This document shows, piece after piece, positions 7,706 to 24,069 of a stretch of 30,743 nucleotides of DNA (position 1 is the stretch's first letter; each line of letters opens with the position of its first letter). Under the pieces are notes generated by a model. It did no database searches and was not told the DNA's origin. It saw only the letters and a list, made by a program, of their open reading frames with translations. The translations under genes and the position numbers were made by a program. The stretch is from a virus. Location: the IMG/VR virus record IMGVR_UViG_3300037606_000126, positions 1-30,743 of that record; one strand, given 5' to 3'.

Positions 7706-7724
7706 GCGAGCGAGACGATATAAG
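7698..7724 (+). promoter_or_regulatory. Possible sigma70-like promoter
   Basis: TTGACT (7698-7703) and TATAAG (7719-7724) resemble -35 and -10 boxes but are separated by 15 bp rather than the preferred 17. They fall at the end of the helicase gene and in the 53-nt gap before the next start, one of the few noncoding gaps in this block. It could restart transcription of the coiled-coil, HTH, SSB-like and primase genes. Weak evidence. Confidence 0.25.
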
Positions 7725-7758
7725 AATAGGCAAAACAACACCAAAGGAGAGCGATACT

Positions 7759-8151
7759 ATGACTGATACCCCGATCGAGAAGCTGACCCGTGTCTACATC
7801 AAGATGCGCGATGCGAAGGCCAAACTGGCCGCCGAGTTCAAGGAGAAAGAAGACAGCTTGAACGCCCAGATGGATCAGGTGAAAGCCGCCCTGCTGGATT
7901 ACTGCAAGGAGCATGAAGTGGAGAGCGTGCGCACTGCATCGGGTCTGGTTTACCGCAGCAAGAAAACGCGGTACTGGACCAGCGATTGGGAAGCCATGCA
8001 CCGGTTTGTTGTTGAGAACAACGTGCCGGAGTTTCTTGAGAAGCGCTTGAACCAGACAGTGGTCAAGACGTTCCTTGAGGAGAACCCTGAAACCGTACCG
8101 CCGGGCATCAACGCCGACTCGGAGTACACAATTACCGTGAGGAAAGCATGA
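7759..8151 (+). CDS. Coiled-coil phage protein of unknown function
   Basis: A 130-residue protein starting after CAAAGGAGAG. Residues about 5-55 form a charged amphipathic helix (KLTRVYIKMRDAKAKLAAEF and onward to LLDYCKEHEV) likely to be a coiled coil. The second half (VESVRTASGLVYRSKKTRYW, then EFLEKRLNQTVVKTFLEENP and a final GINADSEYTITVRK) looks like a small alpha/beta domain ending in a beta strand. The layout recalls Gam-like or Gp157-like phage proteins that bind DNA ends or inhibit host nucleases, but I see no decisive motif. Its end overlaps the next gene's ATG (ATGA), so the two are coupled. Its location inside the replication block supports a DNA-related role. Confidence 0.7.
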   Translation: MTDTPIEKLTRVYIKMRDAKAKLAAEFKEKEDSLNAQMDQVKAALLDYCKEHEVESVRTASGLVYRSKKTRYWTSDWEAMHRFVVENNVPEFLEKRLNQTVVKTFLEENPETVPPGINADSEYTITVRKA

Positions 8152-8429
8152 GTGCTACCAAATACGTGACGACTGCCGAGCTGGCAGCGCACTTCAACGT
8201 CTCCAACGCCACCATTATGGCGATGATGAAATCCGGGGAAATCCCCTCCGGCACGTTCATGCGGCTTGGCCGCGTGTTCCGCTATGATCTGGAAAAGATC
8301 GAGCAAGCGCTCTTGACGAAAGGCACCCCAGTCGATGAAGCTGAGGATTCCCCGCAAGAGCCCGCACTTGTGCAGTACGAGTTCGATCTCGGTGAAGACG
8401 ATACCACAGAAGAAAACCCATACGCTTAA
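8148..8429 (+). CDS. Excisionase-like HTH DNA-binding protein with acidic tail
   Basis: A 93-residue protein. Residues 5-55 match the winged HTH of excisionase and MerR-like families: YVTTAELAAHFNVSNATIMAMM (helix-turn-helix), then SGEIPSG and MRLGRVFRYDLEKIEQAL (wing and following helix). Residues 60-93 are a strongly acidic tail rich in D and E (DLGEDDTTEENPYA). The acidic tail could contact a partner or mimic DNA charge. No integrase is present in the window, so excision is not implied; a transcription or replication-initiation role is as likely. It is coupled to the preceding gene by a 4-nt overlap. Confidence 0.72.
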   Translation: MSATKYVTTAELAAHFNVSNATIMAMMKSGEIPSGTFMRLGRVFRYDLEKIEQALLTKGTPVDEAEDSPQEPALVQYEFDLGEDDTTEENPYA

Positions 8430-8440
8430 GGAGAACCAGC

Positions 8441-9343
8441 GTGAGCAACCTCGATATCTTTAAGGGCAACGCCCTCGTAAACAGCGACCTGTTCAAATCC
8501 TTGCTGGACATGAACAAGAAAATGGCCGGCGGTTCCGGCGCAGCCGGCAACCGGATCAGCATCCGCGGCGGAAAGTTCCGCATGATGGTGGATGGCGAGC
8601 AGGTATCGGTCAGTAAGTCTGACACCATGAACATGGTGATCCTGAACGCGGCCGACGTGGCGCGCACCTATTATGAAGGTGCGTTTGATCCTGAGAAAAT
8701 GACGCCACCTAAGTGCTGGTCGCTCGATACCCGTGCGCCGGCCAACGAAGTGCCAGAAGAAGACCGCATGGCGTCGCGCTGTGCCGACTGCCCGATGAAC
8801 GTCAAGGGTTCCGGTCAAGGCGAGAGCCGCGCGTGCCGTTTCTCGCAGCGTCTGGCCGTGGCACTCGAGGGTGATCTGGAGACAGTCTATCAGCTGCAGC
8901 TGCCAGCTACATCGCTGTTCGGTGAGTCCAAGGGCAACGACATGGGCCTGCAGGCGTACATCAAGTTCCTGTCCGCGCACAACACACCTGTGATTGCGGT
9001 CATGACCGAGATGCGCTTCGACGAGAACGCCAACACGCCGAAGCTGTACTTCCGCCCTGTGCGGGGTCTGGAAGAAGCCGAGCTGCCTATTGTGCTCGCT
9101 GGCCGTGACAGCGACGAGGCCAAGAAGGCGATCACCTTCACCGTGTCGCAGACCGGCAAGGTCGAGAAGCCCAAGGCTGAGCCTAAGGCCGAGCCCAAGG
9201 CCGAGAAGCCCAAGGCCGCACCAAAGGTCGAGGACGACGAAGTGATCGAAGAACCGGAGAAGGTCTCCAAGGCCAAGGCAGAGACACCTGAGCCCAAAAC
9301 AGCTGACAAGCTGGCCTCTATTGTCGACGGTTGGGACGACTGA
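8441..9343 (+). CDS. Putative ssDNA-binding protein with four-cysteine motif and acidic C-tail
   Basis: A 300-residue protein that starts with GTG at 8441, chosen because TAAGGAGAACC lies at ideal spacing and no in-frame ATG is near. Residues about 35-230 form the folded part, with a possible zinc-binding set C92, C114, C117 and C132 (CADCP at 114-118, ACRF at 131-134). Residues about 233-290 are a lysine/proline/alanine/glutamate linker with repeated KAEPKAEPKAE. The end is acidic and aromatic (SIVDGWDD), like the partner-binding tip of many single-stranded DNA-binding proteins. Position between the HTH protein and the primase-helicase fits an SSB-like role. No OB-fold signature is obvious, so the assignment rests on architecture and context. 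Confidence 0.62.
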   Translation: MSNLDIFKGNALVNSDLFKSLLDMNKKMAGGSGAAGNRISIRGGKFRMMVDGEQVSVSKSDTMNMVILNAADVARTYYEGAFDPEKMTPPKCWSLDTRAPANEVPEEDRMASRCADCPMNVKGSGQGESRACRFSQRLAVALEGDLETVYQLQLPATSLFGESKGNDMGLQAYIKFLSAHNTPVIAVMTEMRFDENANTPKLYFRPVRGLEEAELPIVLAGRDSDEAKKAITFTVSQTGKVEKPKAEPKAEPKAEKPKAAPKVEDDEVIEEPEKVSKAKAETPEPKTADKLASIVDGWDD

Positions 9344-9360
9344 TCCACTACCATAACAAT

Positions 9361-9385
9361 GCAGCCTCGGGATAACCGGGGCTGC
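9361..9385 (+). promoter_or_regulatory. 25-nt strong hairpin upstream of primase-helicase gene
   Basis: The inverted repeat GCAGCCTCGG / CCGGGGCTGC (with one T-G wobble) forms a ten-pair stem around the loop GATAA in the 65-nt gap before the primase-helicase gene. It is followed by an A-rich stretch, not a T-run, so a classical rho-independent terminator is doubtful. Its core CCTCGGG-ATAAC resembles the hairpin at 6142-6158. It may attenuate transcription, stabilise mRNA ends or bind a protein. Confidence 0.5.
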
Positions 9386-9408
9386 TCACAATAAAAATAT
9401 GGTGGATC

Positions 9409-12258
9409 ATGGAGAACACAGCATTCCTGAAGCGGGTGCTCGCAGGTGGCGGGCAGTACTGCCTCTTGGGGTTACACCACAGCAGACCTAAGATACAAAA
9501 GTTTTTCTCGACGGTGGAGAAGGTCGTGCATGCTGCCGAGAACGCAGATGCCAACGGCTTTGACACCTATTTCGGCCTTGCCACGTTTGACGATGTGGGC
9601 GAGCGCAAGGCGGCCAACGCCCTGCAGATGTGCAGCCTGTTTCTGGATCTCGACTGCGGTGAGGGTAAAGAATACCCCGAGCAGGGCGAGGCGATTGCGG
9701 CACTGCGGGCTTTCTGCAAGACCGTCGGCATGCCCCGTCCCGTCATGGTCTCCAGCGGCTACGGTGTGCACGTGTACTGGCCTCTGTCCGAGGCGGTGTC
9801 GGTCGCCAACTGGAAGCCCGTGGCAGTCGCTCTCAAGCGCGCCTGCGCGGCCCATGGCCTGCACAGCGACCCCGGCGTGACGGCGGACGCGGCGCGCGTG
9901 CTGCGCATCCCGGGCACGAACAACCACAAGCGCGGCACAGTCGCGCCAGTTACCACGCTCGGCGTCTTCGATGGTGCGCCGCAGGACTTGTCTTGGTTTG
10001 CGGACTTGCTGAAGGCCGAGGCACCGGCCCCAGCGCTTTCGGCGTCGCTGTTCGGCAACGTGACCATGAAGCTCGAAGACGACCCTGTGATGCAGCGTCT
10101 GCTGCGCAACCGAGAGTCCTCGTTCAAGAAGATTCTGCAGAAGACCATGTCTGGTAGCGGGTGCGAGCAGCTGCGCTTTGCCGTCACCGAGCAGGCAGAT
10201 GTCGACGAGCCTATGTGGCGCGCGGCCCTGTCAATCGCCAAGTTCTGTGCTGACGGTGCAAAGGGTGCGCACATCGTGTCGCGAGAACACCCAGAGTACG
10301 ACGCCGAAAGCACCGAAGCCAAGCTGTCCGGCATCATGGGGCCCTACACCTGTGACACGTTTGACAGCACGCGGCCGGGGGTGTGTGGCAACTGCCCACT
10401 GCGCGGCAAGATCAAGTCACCTATTCAGATCGGTGGCATTATTGCTGAGGCAGAAACGGTTGAGGTTGAAGACGAGATCACAGGCGATCCGACCGTTGTT
10501 TACAAAGGTACGGTTAGCGATATACCCGTGTATCCGCTACCGTTTCACCGCGGCAAGCACGGGGGCATTTTCGTAAAGAACGAAGACGACGACGGCAACA
10601 GTGTCGACGTCGATATCTATCCGAACGATCTGTACTATACCAAGCGCGTGCTGGATCACGACCTTGGCGAGTGCGTTCTGGGCAAGCTGCACCTGCCCAA
10701 CGATACGGTGCGCGAGTTTCTGCTGCCGCTGGTCTCAGCCACGTCAAAAGAAGATTTACGCAAGGTCTTAGCAAAAAACGGCGTCGTTACCGGCGCAAAG
10801 AAATGGGATAGCCTGATGACATACACACAGAAATGGATCGAACAGCTGCAAACCACCACCGTGGCCGACACAGCACGCACGCAATTCGGCTGGTCCGACG
10901 ACAATATGACGTCCTACGTCATCGGTGATCGCGAGATCTTCGCCGACAAGGTTGGTTACAACCCCCCGTCAAGCAAGACGGCCTACCTGTTTCCCGCGAT
11001 GCGCCCCAAGGGCACTCTGGAGGGCTGGAAAGCGCAGGGCGAGTTCTACTCCCGCGACGGGCTCGAGCCCTATCAGTTTGTAGTGTGCCAAGCGCTTGCC
11101 GCGCCACTGATGCGGATGACACCGGTGCATGCCGCGATCTTCGACTTCTACAGTGACGGATCGGGTCACGGCAAATCCACGACGCAGAAGTTTGCAGCGT
11201 CGATTTACGGCGATCCCGGTGAACTCGTTGTGGGGGCCGAGGACACGCTGAATATGCGCATGAACCGGATGGAGGTGATGAAGGACGTCAACCTGCAGTT
11301 TGACGAGTTCACCGAGTTCCCCGCCGAGCACACATCAGCGTTGATTTACGGCGCCACCGGTGGTCGGCAGAAGGGGCGCATGTCCTCTGGGAGCAACGAG
11401 GAGCGGCACCGCGGCGACCCGTGGCACACCACGCTGACGTCGTCATCCAACTACTCGATGCTGGCCAAGGTGTACGCTGTCAAAGGCAAGCCTGAAGCCG
11501 AGGAGCAGCGCGTTCTGCGCTACCATGTGCAGCCCCACAACTTCACCGAGAAGACGGAGACTGACCTGTTCGCCAAGTCTATCGGCGAGCACCGGGGGCA
11601 TGCCATCGAAGTGTTTGTGCAGCACATCATGCGCGACCCTGCCACGGCCAAAGAGCTTCTGGAGAGCGTGCAGCGCAGACTTGATACAGCGTGTGGCCTC
11701 ACGATGCAGAACCGGTTCTGGTCTGTGCAGGGTGCGGTGACGATCACGGCCCTGATTTTGGCGCGCGAGGCGGGCCTGTTGACGTACGATCCGGCGAAGC
11801 TGTTCGACTGGGTGGTCAAGCTTATAAACGACAACCGGCGGGCCACGGTCGAAGCCAAGATATCCGTCGAGGCGCTTATCAACGACTTCGTGCATGAGAA
11901 CTACGGCAGCATCTTGTGGATCAAGAGCACTGACGATCTGCGCGGCGCGCACAACTCCAACGGCCTCGACAGTCTGGTGGTGCCGGAAATGCAGCCGAAG
12001 TTCAGGCTCGTTGCCCGCTACGAGACCGATGTTAAAATGATGTACATCGTGATGAAAGCGCTTAAGGTGTGGTGCGTCAAGCAACGGCTGAATTACGACT
12101 CAGTCGTGATGGAGCTGGCCGAAAAGATGAACGCCCGCAAGCAGAAGATGCGCATGTGCAAGGGCACCAAGATGAACCTGCCAGCGGCCACCGTGCTGGC
12201 GATCGACTGCGCGTCCATGGATTTACCGGAGACACCAGATGGAGGTTCTGCGACTTGA
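9409..12258 (+). CDS. Primase-polymerase fused to a P-loop replicative helicase
   Basis: A 949-residue two-part enzyme. The N-terminal part is an archaeo-eukaryotic-type primase: FLDLD (78-82, metal-binding DLD), SGYGVHVYW (116-124, catalytic histidine H121) and DAARVLRIPGTNN (160-172, nucleotide-binding arginines). A linker with C280, C315, C326 and C329 (GPYTC ... CGNCP) follows, resembling the cysteine-bearing module found after such primases. The C-terminal part has Walker A DGSGHGKST (583-591), Walker B LQFDEFTE (629-636) and a sensor-like TTLTSSSNYS (674-683), in the style of DUF927/superfamily 3-like helicases. It probably primes synthesis and unwinds the fork for the family B polymerase. 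The ATG at 9409 has only a weak upstream GGTGG. The gene ends 20 nt inside the next start. Confidence 0.88.
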   Translation: MENTAFLKRVLAGGGQYCLLGLHHSRPKIQKFFSTVEKVVHAAENADANGFDTYFGLATFDDVGERKAANALQMCSLFLDLDCGEGKEYPEQGEAIAALRAFCKTVGMPRPVMVSSGYGVHVYWPLSEAVSVANWKPVAVALKRACAAHGLHSDPGVTADAARVLRIPGTNNHKRGTVAPVTTLGVFDGAPQDLSWFADLLKAEAPAPALSASLFGNVTMKLEDDPVMQRLLRNRESSFKKILQKTMSGSGCEQLRFAVTEQADVDEPMWRAALSIAKFCADGAKGAHIVSREHPEYDAESTEAKLSGIMGPYTCDTFDSTRPGVCGNCPLRGKIKSPIQIGGIIAEAETVEVEDEITGDPTVVYKGTVSDIPVYPLPFHRGKHGGIFVKNEDDDGNSVDVDIYPNDLYYTKRVLDHDLGECVLGKLHLPNDTVREFLLPLVSATSKEDLRKVLAKNGVVTGAKKWDSLMTYTQKWIEQLQTTTVADTARTQFGWSDDNMTSYVIGDREIFADKVGYNPPSSKTAYLFPAMRPKGTLEGWKAQGEFYSRDGLEPYQFVVCQALAAPLMRMTPVHAAIFDFYSDGSGHGKSTTQKFAASIYGDPGELVVGAEDTLNMRMNRMEVMKDVNLQFDEFTEFPAEHTSALIYGATGGRQKGRMSSGSNEERHRGDPWHTTLTSSSNYSMLAKVYAVKGKPEAEEQRVLRYHVQPHNFTEKTETDLFAKSIGEHRGHAIEVFVQHIMRDPATAKELLESVQRRLDTACGLTMQNRFWSVQGAVTITALILAREAGLLTYDPAKLFDWVVKLINDNRRATVEAKISVEALINDFVHENYGSILWIKSTDDLRGAHNSNGLDSLVVPEMQPKFRLVARYETDVKMMYIVMKALKVWCVKQRLNYDSVVMELAEKMNARKQKMRMCKGTKMNLPAATVLAIDCASMDLPETPDGGSAT

Positions 12259-12460
12259 CGACATAGGGCCAGACGGGGTGCGCATGATTGTCGATTGGGA
12301 CAGGATGGGCACCTCGGACTCTGTGTTTGTGCCGTGCCTAAACGTCACGAAGGCGTTGAAGCAAATTCAGGCCATCTTCGACCGCCGCGGCTGGAAACTT
12401 CGCGTGCACGTGAGCGTCGAAAACCACATAATGGGGCTTCGCATCTGGCGAATCGCATGA
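12239..12460 (+). CDS. Small hypothetical protein, last gene of the rightward block
   Basis: A 73-residue protein whose ATG lies 20 nt inside the end of the primase-helicase gene, indicating coupling. It appears to be a small alpha/beta fold: strands around EVLRLDD and VRMIVDWD, a helix TKALKQIQAIFDRRG (about residues 37-51), then strands LRVHVSVEN and LRIWRI. No motif or family is recognised. Being the last gene before a strong terminator, and translated with the primase-helicase, it may be an accessory to it. Confidence that it is coding rests on tight packing and plausible protein composition. Confidence 0.55.
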   Translation: MEVLRLDDIGPDGVRMIVDWDRMGTSDSVFVPCLNVTKALKQIQAIFDRRGWKLRVHVSVENHIMGLRIWRIA

Positions 12461-12511
12461 TATGGTGACGCCATCGCACTTCCTGTTGGTTCTCCACCAA
12501 CCGCCTGACTG

Positions 12512-12539
12512 GCCCCGCACTTCGGTGCGGGGCTTTTTT
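12512..12539 (+). terminator. Rho-independent terminator of the rightward block
   Basis: A perfect nine-pair stem GCCCCGCAC / GTGCGGGGC (512-520 and 525-533) closed by the stable TTCG loop is followed by six Ts (12534-12539). It lies 51 nt after the last rightward gene. The last T is also the first base of the TCA that encodes the stop of the giant leftward gene. On the opposite strand no T-run follows the stem, so it should stop mainly rightward transcription, preventing read-through into the antisense of the late genes. Confidence 0.92.
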
Positions 12540-15500
12540 CATTCTAGGAGCGACGACCGGCTGTAGGCGTCCAGATACTCCTGCACGCGCGCACGGTTCC
12601 CCGGGGCTACATACAGGCCATGGCTTGTCTGTGCAGTGACCCGCTTTGACGCATCGTACGACTGCCGCAGTGTGCTGCGGTCGATACCGTTACGCGGGTT
12701 GCGCTGATTAAACTCTTGCACCTCGGCCATCAATTCCTGCACGGTGTCGAAGTCACCCTCGTCACGGGCCTTGTGGATCTTCTGCATCAAACGGCTTTTC
12801 TCCGTGTTGATCGCGTTATTGATCCGTGTGCCCAGAGAGTTCATCGACAGCTTCTGCTCGTAGGATGCTGGCATGAATCCGAACGCCTGTGCCGCGATGT
12901 GGAACGGTCCGATGTCATCCACCAGATCTCCGCGCCGCGTCTCAATACCCTCTTGCGCGAATCGCACCGACTTGAAGAAGTTGGCGATAGACGTTGGCAG
13001 TAGTCCCTCGACGCCACGCTGGATGTCTCCGTTTGCAATATCTTCGAACTGTCGACCCGAAGTGTACTTCAGAGCCATGCCAAGCACAGGGCCGCCGACA
13101 CCCTCGGCCACTTGGAACAGGGGCGCCGCGTCCTGCGAGGCAAAGCCGGGGCGATAGATGGCGCTGCCCGGACTGATCCGCTCGGAAATCTTCGTCCCCG
13201 TCATATAGTCAACAAGCCCGAAAGCGCCAGCTTCGCCGAGACTCATACGCACCTGCGATTTGAAGTCTGGCTCATCATCGTCAGCGATCAAGAGATCGTA
13301 GAGCCAACCCACTTGTTGGATCAGCGGCAGACCCATGGCTCCAGAGAACACCGCAAGCGATCCGAACATGCGCACGAGCTGGCGCCGCGCGATCTTTGCG
13401 TCCTCGGGGTCAGAGCTTCCCAAACCGCGAGAGGCTGTCTGTGCCAGCAGGTTCAGCATCGCCAGCGGGTGCCGCTTGAACATGTAGACCAGCGACATGA
13501 CGTTACCCTGCGAGGCCAAGGGGCCCGCCGCAGCGTAGATCGGACCGTTGGATTTCTCAGACACGTTGACGGCGCTTTCGGCCGCAGCTTGTGCCTGCTC
13601 GGGGGTGAAATTGAGAGTTCCGGCCTCCAACCTGTTTACAAAATCGCTGATCGACATATCCTGCCGCCCCATAAGATCTTGCAGCTCGAGGATATAGGCA
13701 GCGTTCAGCGCGGTCTCGCGGGAATACCGCTCGGCCTGATGCTGTAGAATACCGGTGGCGGCGGAGATCTTCTCAAACATTGTCGCCTGCTCGCCCAACA
13801 GCTCGTCTTGCATCAGAGACCGGTTAAACACGCCGTTCTTGCGCGCAAACTCGATCAACGGCGCCAGATAAGGCAGCGTGCTGTATTCCGTCGAGTGCTG
13901 CAGGATTGGCACCGAGGCGGTATCGGTCTCGATCTGCCCGTCAGGGCCGATGCGCTCGATGGTCCGCTCGCGGGACGCGCCGGTCAGGATTCGATGTGCC
14001 GCGCCGATTGCGCCCATCGCCCGCATGTCGCTGTATTTGCCAGCCAGCACTGGGTAGACGAACAGCGGGATCTGCGACAGCGTCACCAGAGCGGTCGACA
14101 CGTTGAAGCCCAGCGTCAGCATGTGTGTGCCGGCACCCAAGAAGCGCGACTTGTTTGACCGCACGTTGAAGGGGGCCTTGGTGTATCCCGTGAGCACTTC
14201 GGCGTACTGATTCGCTTCCGCCCGTTGGCGGCTCAGCTCTTCGACAGACACCCCTGCGGGGTTTGTCCCTTGAAAGGCAATGTTCTCGTCGTTTATGGCT
14301 TTCCGCACCGCTGCAAACTCGGCGCCGTACTGCAGGTCGGCCGTTTTCCGTGCGATCCGCATGGCGCTCTGGCGCATGTTCTTGAGCACGTCACCTGCAG
14401 CTTTTGGCTCGGAGATAGGTGTTGCATCGCCCCGGAAACCACGAATACCCTGACGCTTTTTGAAGGCGTTGATGAACGACGTTTCTGGGACCGAGTCCAG
14501 CATCAGGTTGATGATTTGCTGACGCACGTCATTGGTGGCACCCGTGGCCGGATCGACTGCCTGCGCCAGTGTCCCGGAGCTGTCGACAGCGTCTAGAACT
14601 CGGGACACAAACTCCAACGGCACTTCCTGCCGAGAAAACCCAGAGTTTCCGTCTTGGTAAGGCGTTATGTTGGTGACTTGGTTTGTTGCCGGCAAGGCTT
14701 GCAATGCTGCAATCGCAGACTGCCGTTCCCCTTCGCTTTCAAACGAGTGCTTAAACTGTTCCACCTGCGCCTGAGACATATCGACGGCACCGGTCACGGG
14801 GTCTGTGGAGATCGACAGCGGATCAATCGCAGAATAGGACAAGCGGAAAGGGCCGCTGCGCTCAAGGGCGAGGTACGGGTTCAGCAGCCGCTCCGACAAA
14901 ATCTTGTCGTAGATTATCCCAAAGATGCGGTCTTGTAGGGCCTTGTCTTTCGGCAGCAGCGTTTCAATCCGAGTGCGGATTGCGTCGATGTAGCCCTTGC
15001 CGACAGCGGGTTGCAGCTCCAGCATACGGCTGAACTCTTTCTGCAGATCTGCAGGCATGGAGAGCATCATATCTCGCACGCGTTTGTGGTCCGCGGTCGT
15101 CTCGGGGGATTCGTCGAACGCGCGCTTGGCTCGTGCGACGCGCGTTTGCCTACGTTCTGGTGACAGCGCTCTGTTATACGCCTGCAACGCCTTGTTGCGT
15201 TCAGTTTCGGCCTTGTACCGCTGCGACTCGACACGGCGCACAATGTTACCGTCCTTGTCCAGCACGTTGTACTGAAAAGAGTACCCCTCGTATGCGCTTG
15301 CGGGCTTGCGGGGATCGACCTGCAGACGGGTGGCCATGTAGGCTGCGTCATTGAAGGTGTCGACCAGCGGCTGCTGGCGCGCGTATTTGGACAGCACCTT
15401 TGCTGTCTCTTCGGTGGCGTTTACGACCAGCTCGGTCCCTTGGCTAATGGCCCGCTGGTGCTGGCCGATCAGGCCATGCACGCGCCGGGCGCTCGGGATG

Positions 15501-18500
15501 TAACGCAAGGCCATGTCTGCAACATAGTCGAGCGGAACCGCGTATTGCAGCAGCGTGCCTTTCCAGCTCACCGGTAGCTTTGTGTTTTGCAACACCTTAC
15601 GCGTCGACTCCAGATCGGCCTTGGTCGGCACGCGCGCCCGGCCCATGACGTCTTTCAGATACTGCTTGCTGCCGCCCACGGAGAACGACGCGTTGGCGAT
15701 GTCGGCCGCACCCATCTCGTTGGGGTTCACCGCAAGGATCGCGTCCAGCGCTCGGTCCACAGCGGTTTCGGCGGTGTCGACCTTCTTAGGCTGCATGCCG
15801 ACGAGGCTGCGGAGCCAGCCGCCCACAATGTTCTTGAAGCTCTGCCATGCCGAGTACGGCTTGCCTTCGATGTTGGCGTAGCTCAGGTCGCGGCGGAACA
15901 CAGGGTTGGACAGCCCCTCGGTCAGCAGCTCGCGCGCGTTGCTCAGGCCGTAGTGCGTGGCCGGCAGGAACTTCAGCAGCTCTACACGCAGCTTGTCCAG
16001 CTGACGCGTCAGCGGGTGAGACGGGTTTGACAGCACCTTGTCTGCGACGGCATGAAGCGCCTCGTGCAAGGCCAGCTCTGGCGAGATACCTGCGCCCTCG
16101 GTGAAGAGTATCTGCCCACCATACTGCTCGATCAGATCGGCCGCAGCGTCGTGACCCTCTCGCCGCATGGCGGCAAGCTGTGTTTCGTTGCGTGGATGCA
16201 CGTAGACCCCGGGCGGCGTCCCAACGCCCAGCGTTGGCGTCTCGGGTGACAGCTCGGCACGGATGCTGTCCATGATCTCGGGCGAAACGACCTGCGAGCG
16301 GGTATCGCCGATGCGAGCGAGAAGCTTCTCTGCCACACGACGGTGTGTCGGATCACCTGCGGTGCGTGCCAACACGCCAAGAGCGCCGCGTACGTCACCG
16401 GCACGTAGCAGTGCGCTTGCACGTGGATGTGCTTCGCCGGGCCAGCTCATAAGGCCGGCGCCGTTGCTGAAAGACAGTGGGCCTAGATCGAGCGCCGCCA
16501 CTTCGGCTTCGGCCTCTAATTCTGCACGGATTGCATCAAGGTCAAGCGCATCGTCGCGCGGGGCTCTGCGTCGCGCCCCCGGTGCCTTGGGTGTGGCCGT
16601 CTGCGGCGCTTCAGCGAGTGTGTTAAACGGCACAGGCGCAACTCGCGGACCTAAGGCTGCGAGGTCTTGGTAATCGAGCACGTGCTCACGACGCGTGGTC
16701 TCATCCATCGAGTTCCACTGCTGAGGTGTGAAGCCAAGACCCACACGCGCTTCTTCATCCATCGCACGGTGATCGGCCTCGACCTTGGCCTTCCGAACCT
16801 CCAGCTCGGCGTCAGTGAGTTCGTCGACGGTGCGACCAATACCTGCGCGCTTACCCTTAGCGCTGTCCGCCTTATGCCCGTCATACGTCGGGTTTGAGTA
16901 TCCCGCCTTGGTCGCCGTGGCGCGGCCGTCACGTAGAGAGATAAATAGGGCACCCGCCTCGGAAGACAGGTTCTCAAAAATCCAAGTCTCGGCAGCCTGC
17001 CCTGTTTTCCACCCTTGGCCAACTTCCAGCGCCACGTCCGCGCGGACTTTTGGGCTCAGATCAACATCAGCCTCGCCAGCTATATCCTTCCGCGTTTTCA
17101 CGTCAGGGCCACGTTTACCCTTGGGTCGTTTGGCATGCGCCGCATCACTGGCAATCATGTTGAACGCATAGCCCGGGTCAGGCACGCGCCCGAAATACCG
17201 CAGGGCCGCCTGCGCAGGCGACAGGCCGTCGCCAACCGCCACAGTTCTAAGCAGGGCGTCGATCTTCCGCAGGTCCGCGGCAGGCAGCGCCGTGGTTTCA
17301 CGCTCGCCGGGAGGCGCCGTTTCTTCGGCGAACTTGAGGTCCTCAGATGTGTTGTCAGAGTTGAACCAAGCAGCGATACTCTGTTTTGCTTCGGCTTGCT
17401 GCTGCAGTTCTACAAACTGGTTGACCACGCGGTCCATTGCAGGATCGGCTGCGGGTGCTTGCGGCACAGCACCGACTGGGGGCGATGCGAGCACGGCTCT
17501 TGGGATAATCTGCCCAGCTGTGCCGGTCTCGGCGCCCGGGGTCGCCCCGGTCATGGGGTTGCGCGCAGGTGCTGTGGCCTCTGGTGCTACGCCCCCCTGC
17601 TGGGGCTGGAATCCCTCTTCGATGCGCGGCACCCGCATGTCCGACAACGCCGCTTGCAAAAACGGGAAGGGGTCCGCACGGATCGTGTCGGCATAGTCGG
17701 GGAATTGCTGGGCAAATTCAGACGTCAGGTTGTTGGTGTCGTCCAACCTGCGGGCCCGCAGTGGTTGCAGCTGCACCATGGCCGCTTCAATACGCTTTGC
17801 CGCTTCGCGCTCTGCCGGGTCTTGGGAGCGGTTGGCTTCAAGCATATCGTAAGAGCCCCAGTCTGCCGAGGGCATACGCCGATGTGGCAGACCGGCTTCG
17901 TCGGGCCTGAGAGCGAACTGTTGATCGTATGCAGCGGTGGCTTGCCGAAGAGTCTCGGCGGCCTCTAGCTCCGCTTGCGACGGACCAAAATCTCCAACAC
18001 TGGCACCGGGGTAAAGCTCGGCAAACAGGTTCTGTGCCGTCACGGCCTCGCCTTCGGTGAGGTTCAATGTATCGGGCTGTGGCCCCGCTGGTCCATCAGT
18101 ATCTGGTACGCCCAGAACAGGCTCTCCCACTGCTCCTCCGTCAAGTGGCGCAGTGACGGCGGGGCCAACACCTGCACCGGCAGGTCCAACATCACCCCGT
18201 TCGACACTACCTGTAACGCCTGCTCGATCTCCTGACTCGAGATCTCCGACAGGTTCACTTCGTACGTCTGCATCTTGTGTCTCCTGTGTTGTAGGTGCGC
18301 CCTGCACATCTGGCAGCCGCCCTACGTTCGTGTAGGATTCAATGGCGATGTCTGGAAATAGGGCCCGTAGTTCGGGTATGACTTCCGCGTGCGCCGGATT
18401 GACCAACACGCCAGTGACATCTGCAGCTGTCGGGCTGCCTGTAAGACCTTTGCGAAAGGTTATAATAAACGAACCGTCGCGGTACGCCGTACCGCCCGAA

Positions 18501-20482
18501 GTGCCCGTTGCGCCGCCTGTGCCCCGGGTGGGATTGGTAAGTGAGTCAGTGTATAGACCGGGCTTTATGCCCCCGCGCAGCATAGCAACCAGATCTCGGG
18601 TGGCTTGTGTTAGCGTGGCGGCTTTCGCCATTCCGTGCGCAGGGATTACCGCTCCCGCAGTTTCTACAGCGGTAAATGCGGGGTTTGCTTCGGCCGCTCC
18701 GCCGAACAAAGTGTCGCTGCGCTGATTGCGGTTTGCTTGATCCCAGCGCTGCGTCAAACCTTCAAGCGCAGCCGTGGGCGCAGCCGTGGGCGCAGCCGTG
18801 GGCGCAGCGACAGCCGCTTCGCTTGACAATGAGCTTTGAGAAGCGGGCATCTTTGACTTGTTGTATTTAGCGCGCCACGCCTCGAATTTTTGGCGTTCAT
18901 CAATATCACCGGGAATATTTATAGCGATGGTACCCGATGCTTTTCCTTGCTCTGGAAGGCCCAAACCACGGCGCAAAGAACGCACTGTATCAGCATCCAT
19001 CCCAACTTCTGTGGCAACCTCCGCTGCGGTCAGGTCTTGTGCGTGAAGTTCTGTGATTTTATCGAGAACATTGGGGTTTGCCTGACGGATTGCATCTGTC
19101 ACCATCTTGTCGTTTTCCTGAATCCACAAAGACAGTTTGCTTTTTGGTTCTTGGGGCACTCCGCCCGCAGCCGTGGGCGCAGCCGTGGGCGCAGCGACAG
19201 CCGCTTCTGGCTCCAACGGCAAACCCTCTTGCCGAGACGGGGCGCCAAACTCTTCCGCGTATGCTTCCATCGGCGGCGTAGGAGGCCCCATGTCCGGCTG
19301 TGCAGAGGCTTTGATCTCCAGCGCCCTACGGAAAGGCCGCAGCACGGGGCTATTGATCCCGTTGGTGTCCAGATAGTCCAGCGTCATCCGTGCAGCTTGC
19401 GCTTCGGCTTGATCTCTTGAGAGACCGTCGCCCTCTTCTATAATGGCTGCGCGCTCTTCGAAAAAGGCACGGGCGTCTGCCACAACAGGATTAGTCGTTA
19501 TACCGCTGGCGGGCGCAGCTTCTGGTGCGGCGCTAGGACCTGTCGGCCCCGGAGGTGCTGCCGCTGGGGGTGGCGTAGGCGCAGGCCCGCGAGATCCACC
19601 CAACAACGCAGTGGTGCCACGCACGCCACCGCCCATGATGCCGCCTAGAATACCAGCGTCAATGTATTCGCTGATCGCGTCGTCGCTGTCTAACGCCAGA
19701 CCGGCTTGTCTGCGCTCCAACATCTGCTGCGCAATTTCTGTTGGAATCTCGACAGCGGCGCCTTCTCCGAAACCGACAGCTGTGCGGGTCAGCCATTTTT
19801 GACCGGGCTTCAGGAAGCCGCCAAGCAACAGCTTGTCACCGACAGAGTTTAGAGCCGACTGCCCAAGGGCAGAGACAAGGGCCCCCTGCACGTCGACACC
19901 TTCAAGATTGCCCGCAGCGACTTCGTTTTCTTGGCGTTGTATGTTGCCACCGAAGAACGTGGGAAACGCAGTGACCGCACCCGCGCCAAGGCCGATTGCG
20001 GGACCGCCGACAATAGTCCCGGCAGCAGACGCAGCAAGAGGTGCGAGCATTTCGGGGCCACTTTGCCCGATACCTTCCCCGACGTAGGTCAGCGCGCTGC
20101 CAATACCGGTCACGTCTTCGCGGCGTGTCGGTGCAGGTTGGCGCAGGGACTCTTGGAACGATTCCAGATCGCCCTCTTGCCGCATACGCTGCCCGAGGGC
20201 TGCAATACCTTCAGACCCAAGCCCTTGACCGAGGTATTCCGCAGCAGTGCCAAGGCGTGAGTACGCACCAGATTTGCCCAGCTCAAAGCCGCGCCCAAGC
20301 GCAGTGCCGTCGTCAAACACAGGTGCTTGACCGAACATGTCAGAGTATTCCTGCGAAAACTGCGCCTCTTGCTGGGAAACATACTGCCGAATACGATCTT
20401 GTTCCGTGGCAGTGGGGCTGGCCCCTGATATCTGCACGCTGTAGCTTTTGCCGCTTGGTCCGGAAACTTGAATAACGCCCAC
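12539..20482 (-). CDS. Giant polyvalent/internal virion protein with zincin metallopeptidase motif
   Basis: A 2,647-residue protein that starts with GTG at 20482, set by AGGAGG six nt upstream. Visible parts: an N-terminal region with a glycine-zipper-like hydrophobic segment (about 140-180); proline/alanine linkers (300-325, 426-439, 555-568); a small HTH-like segment (about 483-506); long disordered acidic linkers; a zincin motif HEALH at 1473-1477 with a following ELLTEG (E1518 or E1522 as third ligand); and a helical C-terminal half with hydrophobic stretches (THMLTLGFNVSTALVTLSQI; SLVYMFKRHPLAMLNLL). It ends with FKSVRFAQEG ... TRRGD ... AFGFMPASYE, a layout I associate with large polyvalent phage proteins of the PLxRFG/LPD38 kind. 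Such proteins are thought to be packaged and ejected with the DNA. No lysozyme or transglycosylase motif is seen. An RNA polymerase was looked for and not recognised. Confidence 0.85.
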   Translation of the reverse strand: MGVIQVSGPSGKSYSVQISGASPTATEQDRIRQYVSQQEAQFSQEYSDMFGQAPVFDDGTALGRGFELGKSGAYSRLGTAAEYLGQGLGSEGIAALGQRMRQEGDLESFQESLRQPAPTRREDVTGIGSALTYVGEGIGQSGPEMLAPLAASAAGTIVGGPAIGLGAGAVTAFPTFFGGNIQRQENEVAAGNLEGVDVQGALVSALGQSALNSVGDKLLLGGFLKPGQKWLTRTAVGFGEGAAVEIPTEIAQQMLERRQAGLALDSDDAISEYIDAGILGGIMGGGVRGTTALLGGSRGPAPTPPPAAAPPGPTGPSAAPEAAPASGITTNPVVADARAFFEERAAIIEEGDGLSRDQAEAQAARMTLDYLDTNGINSPVLRPFRRALEIKASAQPDMGPPTPPMEAYAEEFGAPSRQEGLPLEPEAAVAAPTAAPTAAGGVPQEPKSKLSLWIQENDKMVTDAIRQANPNVLDKITELHAQDLTAAEVATEVGMDADTVRSLRRGLGLPEQGKASGTIAINIPGDIDERQKFEAWRAKYNKSKMPASQSSLSSEAAVAAPTAAPTAAPTAALEGLTQRWDQANRNQRSDTLFGGAAEANPAFTAVETAGAVIPAHGMAKAATLTQATRDLVAMLRGGIKPGLYTDSLTNPTRGTGGATGTSGGTAYRDGSFIITFRKGLTGSPTAADVTGVLVNPAHAEVIPELRALFPDIAIESYTNVGRLPDVQGAPTTQETQDADVRSEPVGDLESGDRAGVTGSVERGDVGPAGAGVGPAVTAPLDGGAVGEPVLGVPDTDGPAGPQPDTLNLTEGEAVTAQNLFAELYPGASVGDFGPSQAELEAAETLRQATAAYDQQFALRPDEAGLPHRRMPSADWGSYDMLEANRSQDPAEREAAKRIEAAMVQLQPLRARRLDDTNNLTSEFAQQFPDYADTIRADPFPFLQAALSDMRVPRIEEGFQPQQGGVAPEATAPARNPMTGATPGAETGTAGQIIPRAVLASPPVGAVPQAPAADPAMDRVVNQFVELQQQAEAKQSIAAWFNSDNTSEDLKFAEETAPPGERETTALPAADLRKIDALLRTVAVGDGLSPAQAALRYFGRVPDPGYAFNMIASDAAHAKRPKGKRGPDVKTRKDIAGEADVDLSPKVRADVALEVGQGWKTGQAAETWIFENLSSEAGALFISLRDGRATATKAGYSNPTYDGHKADSAKGKRAGIGRTVDELTDAELEVRKAKVEADHRAMDEEARVGLGFTPQQWNSMDETTRREHVLDYQDLAALGPRVAPVPFNTLAEAPQTATPKAPGARRRAPRDDALDLDAIRAELEAEAEVAALDLGPLSFSNGAGLMSWPGEAHPRASALLRAGDVRGALGVLARTAGDPTHRRVAEKLLARIGDTRSQVVSPEIMDSIRAELSPETPTLGVGTPPGVYVHPRNETQLAAMRREGHDAAADLIEQYGGQILFTEGAGISPELALHEALHAVADKVLSNPSHPLTRQLDKLRVELLKFLPATHYGLSNARELLTEGLSNPVFRRDLSYANIEGKPYSAWQSFKNIVGGWLRSLVGMQPKKVDTAETAVDRALDAILAVNPNEMGAADIANASFSVGGSKQYLKDVMGRARVPTKADLESTRKVLQNTKLPVSWKGTLLQYAVPLDYVADMALRYIPSARRVHGLIGQHQRAISQGTELVVNATEETAKVLSKYARQQPLVDTFNDAAYMATRLQVDPRKPASAYEGYSFQYNVLDKDGNIVRRVESQRYKAETERNKALQAYNRALSPERRQTRVARAKRAFDESPETTADHKRVRDMMLSMPADLQKEFSRMLELQPAVGKGYIDAIRTRIETLLPKDKALQDRIFGIIYDKILSERLLNPYLALERSGPFRLSYSAIDPLSISTDPVTGAVDMSQAQVEQFKHSFESEGERQSAIAALQALPATNQVTNITPYQDGNSGFSRQEVPLEFVSRVLDAVDSSGTLAQAVDPATGATNDVRQQIINLMLDSVPETSFINAFKKRQGIRGFRGDATPISEPKAAGDVLKNMRQSAMRIARKTADLQYGAEFAAVRKAINDENIAFQGTNPAGVSVEELSRQRAEANQYAEVLTGYTKAPFNVRSNKSRFLGAGTHMLTLGFNVSTALVTLSQIPLFVYPVLAGKYSDMRAMGAIGAAHRILTGASRERTIERIGPDGQIETDTASVPILQHSTEYSTLPYLAPLIEFARKNGVFNRSLMQDELLGEQATMFEKISAATGILQHQAERYSRETALNAAYILELQDLMGRQDMSISDFVNRLEAGTLNFTPEQAQAAAESAVNVSEKSNGPIYAAAGPLASQGNVMSLVYMFKRHPLAMLNLLAQTASRGLGSSDPEDAKIARRQLVRMFGSLAVFSGAMGLPLIQQVGWLYDLLIADDDEPDFKSQVRMSLGEAGAFGLVDYMTGTKISERISPGSAIYRPGFASQDAAPLFQVAEGVGGPVLGMALKYTSGRQFEDIANGDIQRGVEGLLPTSIANFFKSVRFAQEGIETRRGDLVDDIGPFHIAAQAFGFMPASYEQKLSMNSLGTRINNAINTEKSRLMQKIHKARDEGDFDTVQELMAEVQEFNQRNPRNGIDRSTLRQSYDASKRVTAQTSHGLYVAPGNRARVQEYLDAYSRSSLLE
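18779..18820 (-). repeat. 42-nt direct repeat, copy 1, within the giant gene
   Basis: Encodes an alanine/proline/threonine linker (AAPTAAPTAA type) at residues 555-568. It is identical over 42 nt to the copy at 19166-19207 and is extended here by one more 12-nt unit at 18767-18778. The two copies are 387 bp apart, exactly 129 codons, so recombination between them would keep the frame. Confidence 0.85.
19166..19207 (-). repeat. 42-nt direct repeat, copy 2, within the giant gene
   Basis: Second copy of the alanine/proline/threonine linker repeat (residues 426-439), identical to 18779-18820. The two copies bracket the segment that carries the HTH-like motif. Confidence 0.85.
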
Positions 20483-20530
20483 GAGAACCTCCTAGTTTGG
20501 CACCACTATACGGGAGCTTTCAGCCGCACG

Positions 20531-22450
20531 CTAGTCTCTCGCGTTGTGGGTCGACCCTTGCCCGTAACCAAAAGGCTGCAAGCCATACTGTGCATACGCA
20601 GCGTTAATTTGGTTTTGAGCCCGTTGCACATCCTGCGCTGCCCGAAGACGCTCATTGGGGTTTGGGTCAGGACTGTCAAAGAAAAATCCGGGTTTCGGGG
20701 GTGAACCCAAACTAGCAAGTCGTTCTTGAGCTTGCTCCAGTTGATTAAACAACGGTGTAATAACCGTGGCTGGTATACCTTTGTCCCGTCCCGCCGCCGC
20801 ACTGCGCGCCGCCAAGGCTTGCCGCTCAAGATCGAGCTTCGCGCGACCCATACGGCTTTGTTCAATTTGGCCAAGCAATGCAACACGATCGGCCTCCGCC
20901 GTACTCTTACCTTCACGGAGCGCCCCAAGACCCGTGGCGCCAGCTTCGCCGAGAGCGCCACCAAACGTGGGGCTCTTCGACGACATCAGCGACAGCCCCG
21001 CTTGCGCCAGTGCCAGCCACTTGTCTTGCGTGGCACGCTTCTCGCGCGACTGCAGCATGTTCAACATCTCTTGCTCATAGTCGGACGGAGCGCCTGCGCC
21101 CTGCGCAGCTATACCTGCGATACCACCGCCGGAAGGAGTGCGGGGTGGCCCCGGAGGGGCTGGATCAACGGTGGGATCAACGGTGGGATCAACGGTGGGA
21201 TCAACGGTGGGATCAACGGTGGGATCAACGGTGGGATCAACGACCGCAGGGTCAAGCGCCGTGTCGGTTGCAGGGGGGGCGACCACTGGCGGCGCCACTC
21301 GAGGCTCGGCAGTGCCAAGGGCTTCGCGAACGATCCTGTTGCGCTCCCCGGAGCTGCCAAAGATATAGCGGTTGTATTGCTCTTGGTTGATCTGGCCGCT
21401 CTCCAGCAGCCGATCGGCCGTAGCTTTCGGATCTTCCCCACTAAGTGTTTCCGCAATAATCGTTCCAAGGCCGCGGGTGTCGGTGCCAGCCACAGGGGCA
21501 TCGGGCCCCGCTACGGGAGTGGTTGGCAAAAACGGGCTGTTGAGGTCGAACATCTGCCCCTCTCCGGTTGGGACTGGGCCGAAGAGCGAGGGGGCATAGG
21601 CGGCAATCGCTGCGCGGCTGTCGCGAGCGTCGGCAGTTTCCATCATGCGGTTTGGGGATGCGCGAGAGGGGGTTACGTTCGCTCCGATGTCCGCCGCCGA
21701 TGGCGCACCAAGCTCAGGTGTCCCACGGCTCACAAGAGAGTCGCTGCCCGGCACGGGGGGTAGGCCGCTGATGGACTCAGGTGCCCCCATATCTGCTATG
21801 TCCGCAAAGGTCACTGGGGGTGCGCTTACCGGCCGCAAGTCCGGCATCCCTACCTGCGCACGGCTCGGTTGAGCCTGCACAGCCCTCTGATCGCTCTGTG
21901 GCACCGTGACGTCTAGCACGTCACTAATGCTAGGCCCTGCCATGTCCGATAAGTTAACCGTGGGTGCTGGTGGAGTAGGGTCTAGTTCTCGATCTAGCCC
22001 CGCCAACTGGCTGCGCGACAGCGACACTAGGCTGCCGTCCGGCATTTCTAACATCTGCCGCCCGTTACGCACAACAAGGCGCGGCGCGCGAATTGGACCA
22101 CCACCATCTTGCAAGGCCACGATGCCGCCACCGGCCATACGCTGAGGAGGCATGGCACTCTGCTGGGGCATGGCCCCTGTGTTTCCCGCCATATCGGTCT
22201 GCGGTGCCATGGCACCGGCCATCTGCCTTGCGAACTCTGCGGGCATGCCTGCGGCGGCCACGGCGTCCTGCGCCACGGTGCTCTGGTCACGGCCCTGCTC
22301 GATGGCAAACGAGTCTTCCATCTTTTTGCGGCGCGTCAGCTCACTCAACACCAAGAACTGAGGCATCTGCCCCGTGGGCATCTGCATCTCTTGAATGAGT
22401 TGTTGCTGCGAGAGGTTCTTCAGTTTGTCCTGTAGATCGAGGATATTCAT
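20531..22450 (-). CDS. Repeat- and proline-rich internal virion protein, 639 residues
   Basis: The ATG at 22450 is preferred over the GTG one codon upstream because it forms TGATG with the stop of the preceding gene, and AAAGGGA lies upstream. The N-terminus is a glutamine/leucine-rich amphipathic helix (LQDKLKNLSQQQLIQEMQ). Residues about 130-430 are low-complexity, proline- and alanine-rich, with a short GGGIVALQDGGG motif before them. A sevenfold VDP/TVDP repeat sits near residue 410-430. The last 170 residues are helical (LNMLQSREKRATQDKWLALA; GLSLMSSKSPTFGGALGEAG), with a final region containing QDVQRAQNQINAAYAQYGLQ. Its place just before the giant gene matches that of T7 gene 15, but no sequence likeness is claimed. 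Probably a virion protein ejected with the DNA. Confidence 0.75.
   Translation of the reverse strand: MNILDLQDKLKNLSQQQLIQEMQMPTGQMPQFLVLSELTRRKKMEDSFAIEQGRDQSTVAQDAVAAAGMPAEFARQMAGAMAPQTDMAGNTGAMPQQSAMPPQRMAGGGIVALQDGGGPIRAPRLVVRNGRQMLEMPDGSLVSLSRSQLAGLDRELDPTPPAPTVNLSDMAGPSISDVLDVTVPQSDQRAVQAQPSRAQVGMPDLRPVSAPPVTFADIADMGAPESISGLPPVPGSDSLVSRGTPELGAPSAADIGANVTPSRASPNRMMETADARDSRAAIAAYAPSLFGPVPTGEGQMFDLNSPFLPTTPVAGPDAPVAGTDTRGLGTIIAETLSGEDPKATADRLLESGQINQEQYNRYIFGSSGERNRIVREALGTAEPRVAPPVVAPPATDTALDPAVVDPTVDPTVDPTVDPTVDPTVDPTVDPAPPGPPRTPSGGGIAGIAAQGAGAPSDYEQEMLNMLQSREKRATQDKWLALAQAGLSLMSSKSPTFGGALGEAGATGLGALREGKSTAEADRVALLGQIEQSRMGRAKLDLERQALAARSAAAGRDKGIPATVITPLFNQLEQAQERLASLGSPPKPGFFFDSPDPNPNERLRAAQDVQRAQNQINAAYAQYGLQPFGYGQGSTHNARD
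21163..21242 (-). repeat. Seven 12-nt units encoding a VDPT repeat
   Basis: GATCAACG recurs at exact 12-nt steps seven times within GGGATCAACGGT units. Read on the - strand it encodes VDP seven times, joined by threonines. The units are identical at nucleotide level, which points to recent expansion by slippage or recombination inside a disordered linker. Confidence 0.9.
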
Positions 22451-24069
22451 CACTGCATCCCTTTATAAAGACCTACCGCCGAGATGCCCGCGCCCAGCGC
22501 CTGCTGCATCGCACTCGGTCCCGGCGCTGTTGTTGTCGTTGCGCCGATGTCTGCCACCGGCATGCCCCGTAGTGTTGCAGAGTAATCTGCCAGCTGTTGG
22601 CGCGGGAAGTTCTGCTGCCGAAGAAAGTCTTCGTAGCCAACGTCGAGCCGCGCTTGGCCTCGTGCCATCTCGCCGAGACCCTGCGCTTCAAGGAGCTGCG
22701 CTGCCTGAATGTCGCCCTGACGGGCCCGCTCGCCAAGAGCCGCCACTTCTCGTGCCATGTCAGCACTAAAACCCATGGTCTGCAGTTGAAACTCACGCTG
22801 ACGCATCGCCTCGTCAGCACTGGACTGCTGGACTCGAGCGGCTTCGCTCGCCTGCGCCGCTTGCACGCGTGCGGCCTCCTCGACACTTATGCCCTGCGTC
22901 CGCGCCATCTCTTGCGCCTGACCCTGCTGCACTCGAGCGGCCTCTTCCACACTAATACCCTGCACTCGCGCCATCTCTTGCGCCTGCGCCGCTTGCACGC
23001 GAGCCGCTTCGTCGACACTTATGCCCTGCACTCGCGCCATCTCTTGCGCCTGCGACTGCTGCACACGGGCCGCTTCGTCGACACTTATGCCCTGCACTCG
23101 CGCCATCTCTTGCGCCTGCGCCGCTTGCACGCGAGCCGCTTCGTCGACACTTATGCCCTGCGTCCGCGCCATCTCTTGCGCCTGCGACTGCTGCACACGG
23201 GCCGACTCGCCCAGACCGATACCCTGCACTCGCGCGGCTTCTTCGGCCCGACGCTGCTCAGTGGTCATGCCTGCGGCACGATCGCGCTCAAACTGCTGCT
23301 GTGCCTGCTCAAACGCACGCTGCGAGCCCGTGGCTTGGATGTCGCCAAGCTGGTCCATCAGGCCTGTTTCGGCGATGCCCTGTTGTACCGCCTGACGGCT
23401 ACCGCCGAAGGCCCCCGCCTGAACAGCCGACGCATCGCGCCCGGCCTGCTGCTGACGAAACTTCTCGATTGCGTCGTCCTGCTGCCGACCCACGACGGTC
23501 TGCATAAACGGGTCCATGTACTGTGCGGCTGTGGCAGTATCAAACTGTCTTGTGGGGTCGTAACCAAACTGCTGGGCCCCGCCAAATTCTTGAAAATCAG
23601 AAAAGGGCGTTGCCTGCCCGGCTTGAAAATCAGAAAACGGCGACACTTGCCCTGCTTGAAAATCAGAAAACGGCGACACTTGCCCTGCTTGAAACTGGGC
23701 AAACTCTTGGCCCGGCGTGGCTTGAAACCCCGCGTAGGGGGATACACCCGTTTGCCCAAACTCGGCCGCGTTAAACTGCCCCGGCTGCTGCCGGCCCAGC
23801 TGGCCGGCAAGAGACCCGAGACCGCCCAAGGTTCCTTGCGCCCCGGCAAGCCCTGCAATCGGCTGACCAGCGATATTTCGGATCATCTGTTGAGACGTAC
23901 CTAGATCGGCCGAGTCATCGGCAAGACGCTGCCCACCGAACGGGCTGTACGCCTCTTCGCTGAGCGCTTTGCTTTTGCTCATAACGTCGGTGTAGTACGG
24001 CTTCAGGAACGCCGGGACGTCTTGCGTCACCGTCTGCGTTGTGTTTGTGGGGGCTTTACCCTTACCCAT
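22450..24069 (-). CDS. Virion protein with 11-residue (hendecad) coiled-coil repeats, 539 residues
   Basis: It starts at ATG 24069, after GGAG, and overlaps the GNAT-like gene by 8 nt. The N-terminal 75 residues begin with KAPTNTTQTVTQDVPAFLKP, a start often seen in phage proteins of this position. Residues about 128-160 contain three 11-residue units of the FQAGQVSPFSD type. Residues about 170-260 are glutamine- and alanine-rich helix (QQDDAIEKFRQQQAGRDASA). Residues about 272-414 hold 13 hendecads alternating GISVDEAARVQ and AAQAQEMARVQ, predicting a long right-handed coiled coil. The C-terminus has ARLDVGYEDFLRQQNFPRQQ and ends with a small hydrophobic, glycine-rich stretch (QQALGAGISAVGLYKG). 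Probably an internal core or ejection-channel protein; gene order would make it a counterpart of T7 gene 14, which is inference. Confidence 0.78.
   Translation of the reverse strand: MGKGKAPTNTTQTVTQDVPAFLKPYYTDVMSKSKALSEEAYSPFGGQRLADDSADLGTSQQMIRNIAGQPIAGLAGAQGTLGGLGSLAGQLGRQQPGQFNAAEFGQTGVSPYAGFQATPGQEFAQFQAGQVSPFSDFQAGQVSPFSDFQAGQATPFSDFQEFGGAQQFGYDPTRQFDTATAAQYMDPFMQTVVGRQQDDAIEKFRQQQAGRDASAVQAGAFGGSRQAVQQGIAETGLMDQLGDIQATGSQRAFEQAQQQFERDRAAGMTTEQRRAEEAARVQGIGLGESARVQQSQAQEMARTQGISVDEAARVQAAQAQEMARVQGISVDEAARVQQSQAQEMARVQGISVDEAARVQAAQAQEMARVQGISVEEAARVQQGQAQEMARTQGISVEEAARVQAAQASEAARVQQSSADEAMRQREFQLQTMGFSADMAREVAALGERARQGDIQAAQLLEAQGLGEMARGQARLDVGYEDFLRQQNFPRQQLADYSATLRGMPVADIGATTTTAPGPSAMQQALGAGISAVGLYKGMQ
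22828..23256 (-). repeat. Thirteen 33-nt hendecad repeats
   Basis: Thirteen consecutive 11-codon units ending in ARVQ or ARTQ. Units of two kinds alternate (GISVDEAARVQ and QSQAQEMARVQ or AAQAQEMARVQ), giving a 66-nt higher-order unit, and the QSQ/AAQ choice alternates again at 132 nt. The near-identity of the DNA suggests recent amplification. Confidence 0.9.
23589..23687 (-). repeat. Three 33-nt repeats encoding FQAGQ(V/A)(S/T)PFSD
   Basis: Units begin at 23589, 23622 and 23655, the last two identical. They encode an 11-residue, phenylalanine-bearing repeat upstream of the coiled coil in the same protein. The period matches the hendecads but the composition is quite different. Confidence 0.85.

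Follow-up and report, generated by a model that had tools for sequence, protein, structure and literature searches.

A giant polyvalent-class protein of a podovirus late operon carries an invariant zinc-site motif and a previously undescribed island domain

The viral contig record IMGVR_UViG_3300037606_000126 (30.7 kb; the window analyzed here is its entire 30,743 nucleotides) contains one gene for a protein of 2,647 residues, and it raises the question of what so large a phage protein is made of and what its parts do. Phages are believed to eject giant proteins of the polyvalent type as soon as infection begins, in which case their cargo would be the first to act on the host, and experimental tests exist for few of the domains involved. 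A reading of the letters alone (the sequence-only reading) had proposed a single gene with a zincin, a helix-turn-helix (HTH)-like segment and a polyvalent-type C-terminus, arranged as several islands between disordered linkers. The frame is read through without internal stops from a GTG start behind a strong ribosome-binding site, so the single gene stands, and the arrangement into islands and linkers is supported; the functional interpretation in that reading is supported in part. We find that the giant is a new member of the phage polyvalent-protein class (PMC5512222), made up of an N-terminal virion-like module, an island, a zincin-like domain and a C-terminal module, together with a weakly supported HTH segment (Table 1). 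No near DNA relatives of the window were detected by megablast against phages and plasmids.

Class membership and the zinc-site motif

The polyvalent-type C-terminus is borne out by NCBIfam family NF032893 (PLxRFG), against which the whole protein scores 211.9 bits (E 1.7e-62) relative to a curated cut-off of 100 bits. The name-giving motif is not needed to pass this cut-off: the literal pattern P[LIVMF]x[RK][FYLW]G was found in the protein of phage Skulduggery and was not found in the window protein. The C-terminus also matches the C-terminal parts of phrog_10089, phrog_11358 and phrog_30335 (E < 1e-27). Among annotated phages, the best tblastn matches (Skulduggery, Atu_ph08, PBC5, and Klebsiella and Erwinia podoviruses) are ~25% identical and confined to the C-terminal part, and a search of PDB sequences with the whole protein and with the C-terminal alignment gave no match. 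At the other end, the N-terminal module matches phrog_6958 (E 1.1e-9), phage tf (32% identity by tblastn, E 9e-8) and relative L016 (E 1e-18); the tf product, tf_51, resembles LUZ24 gp50 and carries the annotation 'phage particle protein'. Phage JC1 has a DarB-like giant (gp69) in the same PHROG as the window giant, and 51 unique peptides of gp69 were detected by mass spectrometry in virions purified on cesium chloride (PMC9144972).

Both HEALH and the downstream ELLTEG (aa 1518-1523) lie where the sequence-only reading had placed them, and that reading had named conservation of HExxH in relatives as one part of its own test; on this part it holds. Across 11 aligned sequences with identities down to ~22%, the H, E and H of the motif and E1518 are invariant (columns 113, 114, 117 and 158 of alignment A8), and N1515 and E1522 (columns 155 and 162) are nearly so. 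By composition, 0.019 HExxH motifs would be expected in this protein. HEALH is a genuine conserved zinc-site motif and not a chance occurrence. The ratio of nonsynonymous to synonymous substitution rates (dN/dS) for the zincin is 0.13-0.34. Profile comparisons gave distant matches among relatives: the copy of one relative falls in with phrog_2206, the family of the N4 virion RNA polymerase (E 8e-6), three of the 11 members weakly match the ATLF-type family PF07737 (best E 1.6e-4), one matches MPTase-PolyVal (PF18818) at E 0.23, and matches among relatives extend to DUF6782 (0.004) and Tox-MPTase4 (0.023). Against the PDB, the zincin alignment finds 9sfn_G (E 0.01), a phage 'internal virion protein' of 1,337 aa that has LHEAVHA and a downstream NVKELV. 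Two island-bearing giants, L008 and L009, are without HExxH and have HExxxH instead (HETMGH and HEILGH, at aa 1551); polyvalent zincins have been described with active sites of this alternative type (PMC5512222).

The conserved island and the exchangeable cassettes

The alpha/beta segment that had been left unassigned at about aa 575-720 proves to be a real conserved domain spanning aa 565-735. A scan of viral contigs identified 15 loci encoding it. The copy on the L001 contig is identical to that of the window, and L032-L036 are seemingly one sequence, leaving ten divergent relatives that are 31-67% identical over the aligned stretch. The 11 aligned sequences share the invariant pattern AHG..K...A.RDG.FI...V...E, with H616, K620, R668, D669 and E700 as invariant residues (H616, R668, D669 and E700 are columns 52, 104, 105 and 136 of alignment A7); whether the E700 column is invariant hinges on how gaps are placed in L032. 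Island dN/dS is 0.13-0.22. Its carriers are diverse. The island occurs with the PLxRFG module and HExxH in L024 and, by matching PHROG or profile, in L027 and L028; with HExxxH in L008, just below the curated PLxRFG cut-off, and in L009, above it; in the giants L010 and L031, which have no PLxRFG match; and on its own, as a 251-aa open reading frame (ORF), in L032-L036. Searches of annotated phages (tblastn), of Pfam and PHROGs, and of 84,980 prokaryote genomes gave no match, and among viral structure models there was one 36%-identical 'large polyvalent' protein with no annotated function. Matches of designed pentatricopeptide repeat proteins in the PDB cover one helix and were judged to be chance. 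On these alignments and searches, the island is a conserved, mobile and unnamed domain that had not previously been described, and the enzymatic activity predicted for it can be tested.

In L032 (and in L033-L036), at positions 6258-14407, the solo island-like ORF adjoins a transfer RNA-nucleotidyltransferase-like ORF, and several neighboring ORFs begin with similar short N-termini (MKFKQWLFSEE, MKFKIWLEN, MNFKHWLLSEE). These may resemble the capsid-targeting N-termini of large myoviruses.

Over aa 960-2647 the closest relative, L001, shows 93% identity to the window giant, and both the HTH-bearing cassette and a second variable cassette are missing from it, for which reason we regard the N-terminal half as exchangeable cargo. 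The loss of the HTH cassette in L001 is exactly bounded by the two copies of a 42-nucleotide direct repeat, so recombination between repeats is the simple explanation of its gain or loss. Cargo turnover is therefore visible at the level of single bases, as a repeat-bounded cassette in one phage that is absent from a near-identical one. An HTH-like segment can indeed be seen by eye at aa ~468-508, as the sequence-only reading had noted; scores against HTH-type families are weak (E 0.05-0.23), and judged against L001 the segment is weak and dispensable, part of a cassette and not a fixed part of the protein. Nucleotide identity between the window and L001 is mosaic, at 77% for aa 1-150, 99% for aa 1091-1360, 89% in the zincin and 96% at the C-terminus, and L004 and L002 have different sequence in the middle of the giant.

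Two further observations concern this part of the protein. Over aa 1091-1360 (16403-17212) nucleotide identity to L001 exceeds that of both neighboring regions, and the same stretch is ~29% identical to L004 and L002. In L002, a different, conserved-looking cassette of ~110 aa precedes the middle region that the giants share (nucleotides ~150-650), acetyltransferase-like by eye and with no Pfam match.

Proposed role of the giant and the alternatives

The best explanation of the locus, to which we assign a probability of roughly two in three, is a podovirus giant ejection or polyvalent protein with a self-processing zincin. The N-terminal virion-like part, with its glycine-rich amphipathic stretches, and the helical C-terminal PLxRFG module would serve delivery and packaging. 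The middle would be exchangeable cargo on disordered linkers, comprising the HTH cassette, an ADP-ribosyltransferase (ART)-like domain and the second cassette, and the zincin would most likely cut the polypeptide in cis or in trans, freeing parts of it during assembly or after entry. By homology and synteny we infer that the giant is probably packaged and ejected with the DNA; protease activity, self-processing and ART chemistry are predictions. Self-processing is also the main role proposed in the literature for polyvalent zincins (PMC5512222), and the invariant zinc site makes self-processing of such giants directly testable.

Several observations weigh against this explanation. The virion detection is that of the homologous JC1 gp69, whereas the window phage is known from the 30.7-kb record alone. 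The window zincin itself has no match in Pfam, PF18818 included. L018 has the zincin and no PLxRFG match, and the C-terminal 1,183 aa of JC1 gp69 fall below the NF032893 cut-off; the modules are therefore separable. Comparison of a zincin-to-C-terminus profile with the C-terminal region of the N4 virion RNA polymerase gave a suggestive local P of 3.5e-4, from which homology was not accepted, and the N4 protein, the best-documented analogue and one with an HExxH domain of its own, enters the virion uncut (PMC5512222).

Three other accounts of the protein were considered. The ejected zincin could be an effector protease that cleaves a host defense or regulatory protein, our second choice; this is the active, host-delivered metallopeptidase that the sequence-only reading had suggested. 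The survey of polyvalent proteins leaves room for it (PMC5512222), and it fits the distant resemblance of the relatives' domains to the toxin-type metallopeptidases PF07737 and Tox-MPTase4. However, the zincin lies at the border between the cargo that turns over and the conserved C-terminal module, and family members with HExxH keep it even as their N-terminal cargo changes, as expected of a core processing or structural function; for this reason we favor self-processing and consider a host target rather unlikely. Alternatively, the HExxH domain may be structural or vestigial and serve packaging or folding in place of catalysis, with the N4 virion RNA polymerase as a possible parallel, because that protein is packaged at full length and requires its metallopeptidase-containing region for encapsidation (PMC5512222), and because a cryo-electron microscopy preprint assigns no activity to its HExxH subdomain (PMC12633501). 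Yet invariance of H, E, H and the distal Glu, the general base included, at ~22-30% identity goes beyond usual structural need, and we give a noncatalytic domain little credence. Finally, the PHROG label of phrog_10089, 'DarB-like antirestriction' (E 6.7e-31), would make the giant a DarB-type antirestriction protein. The match is limited to aa 2295-2625, or positions 4305-4628 of a 4,647-position profile, and Pfam detected neither a methylase nor an SNF2 helicase anywhere in the 2,647 aa. Given that adenine methylase and SNF2 helicase domains define DarB (PMC5512222), the label is misleading for a protein without them, and this reading is highly improbable.

For the island, the choice lies between an ART fold and some other small alpha/beta domain, either structural or a different enzyme. 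The AlphaFold2 model rose from a predicted local distance difference test score of 64 with 5 sequences to 68 with 11. In a second structural comparison using the 11-sequence model, the top 8 of the 11 rows were ARTs (Tpt1 and DarT), and unrelated rows had Z <= 2.7; ARTs also headed the list with the 5-sequence model. Enlarging the alignment from 5 to 11 sequences raised the Tpt1 match from Z 3.6 to Z 5.1 (best match, root-mean-square deviation 4.2 over 86 residues), and DarT matches went from at most Z 2.7 to 3.2-4.1. Against this, model confidence is moderate, Foldseek found no significant match to the model in the PDB (best E 0.72), and comparison with the KptA profile by hhalign failed (Prob 0.16%). 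PF01885 (KptA/Tpt1) was not found in the record, with a positive control in 3 genomes. Deiminase rows in the Foldseek list covered ~30 residues of the model and were not significant. If the fold is that of an ART, the invariant H616, R668, D669 and E700 would be candidates for catalytic residues of the H...E type. Since neither Foldseek nor the KptA profile supports it, we speak of a possible ART fold and not of an ART: a domain of another kind is somewhat the likelier, and membership of the ART superfamily is a tentative suggestion from the models. It is unlikely that the fuller proposal holds, in which the island would be the founding member of a new ART-superfamily domain, swapped among unrelated phage giants, ejected, released by the zincin and acting on host protein, RNA or DNA. 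The expectation that unassigned islands may be places to find new activities gains support from a conserved, undescribed domain with a weak signal of an ART-like fold.

Genomic setting and comparison with known systems

The giant gene is the final gene of a podovirus late (tail/ejection) operon. The same operon includes, upstream, a tail fiber gene (28609-29892) and a P22-gp10-like stabilization/tail protein gene (26137-28032; phrog_3287, E 1.4e-76) whose product is 42% identical to its counterpart in phage DSL-LC04, and between the tail genes and the giant gene are three ORFs of internal-protein size (417, 539 and 640 aa). The 539-aa ORF has a match at E 1.4e-6 to a family labeled 'DNA ejection protein'. 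Gene order in DSL-LC04 is similar, and its last gene is named 'DNA transfer protein'; this protein, in the equivalent slot, was considered as a relative of the giant and rejected, as there is no sequence homology. Locus L028 has a comparable ORF layout, with the giant at the end followed by a convergent 952-aa ORF, and its giant is ~25-44% identical to that of the window, depending on the segment.

Table 1. Features of the giant gene and its immediate surroundings, in window coordinates
Feature	Residues or size	Position	Strand	Remark
Giant polyvalent/ejection-type protein gene	2,647 aa	12539..20482	minus	single intact ORF, GTG start
Shine-Dalgarno AGGAGG		20488..20493	minus	5-nucleotide spacer to GTG of giant gene
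N-terminal module	aa 1-300	19583..20482	minus	aa 51-251 similar to tf_51 / LUZ24 gp50 virion structural proteins
Direct repeat, copy 1	42 nucleotides	19166..19207	plus	one edge of HTH cassette
HTH-bearing cassette	aa 430-566, 411 nucleotides	18785..19195	minus	missing from L001
Direct repeat, copy 2	42 nucleotides	18779..18820	plus	other cassette edge, 100% identical to copy 1
Conserved island	aa 565-735	18278..18790	minus	motif AHG..K / A.RDG.FI / E
Second variable cassette	aa ~807-972	17567..18063	minus	missing from L001
Zincin-like metallopeptidase domain (predicted)	aa 1361-1621	15620..16402	minus	sequence and profile comparison
HEALH	aa 1473-1477	16052..16066	minus	invariant HExxH
Putative third zinc ligand	Glu1518	15929..15931	minus	invariant in alignment
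C-terminal conserved module, PLxRFG family	aa 1980-2647	12542..14545	minus	best stretch aa 2321-2627
Terminator-like palindrome		12511..12534	plus	separates convergent giant gene and replication operon

Elsewhere in the window, the 539-aa ORF (22450-24069) has a tandem repeat of ~22 aa (MARVQGISVDEAARVQ...), matches DNA-ejection/scaffold-like families and has relatives in cyanophages. A low-complexity repeat protein (TGVDATTAVGTVVATGTA...) encoded at 29913-30743 adjoins the tail fiber gene and runs off the contig end. A DNA methyltransferase gene (737-1483) and an SNF2-like helicase gene (6170-7705) are separate and on the strand opposite the giant gene, so that the two activities combined in DarB are here encoded outside the giant protein.

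Parallels with known systems differ from one part of the giant to another. With tf_51 and LUZ24 gp50 it shares the aa 51-251 region and the operon position, but those proteins are ~1,021 aa long and the likeness was found in the N-terminal region only. The predicted fold of the island weakly resembles those of Tpt1/KptA and DarT, and its HG motif precedes a helix and G-I (compare HGT...GL in KptA), whereas it has no significant sequence or profile similarity to Tpt1/KptA and the Tpt1 N-lobe is absent. The virion RNA polymerase of N4 (gp50), which is ejected (PMC12633501), is likewise a giant virion-type protein encoded by the last late-operon gene on its strand, and in both proteins a large helical C-terminal part comes after the HExxH domain; Pfam recognizes no RNA polymerase domain in the window giant, however. 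PLxRFG proteins such as SKUL_28 of Pseudomonas phage Skulduggery and that of Klebsiella phage LASTA share the C-terminal module, and the Skulduggery protein also has a zincin-like HExxH, while the window giant differs from them in having no literal motif, in its N-terminal cargo and in its ~25% identity to the annotated phages. Although Pfam recognizes in the window giant none of the enzyme domains that Iyer et al. listed in 2017 for phage-type polyvalent proteins (PMC5512222), the one exception being the zincin, recognized weakly and in relatives, the giant shares with those proteins a single very large polypeptide, an HExxH zincin with a distal Glu, a late-gene setting and exchangeable, disparate domains.

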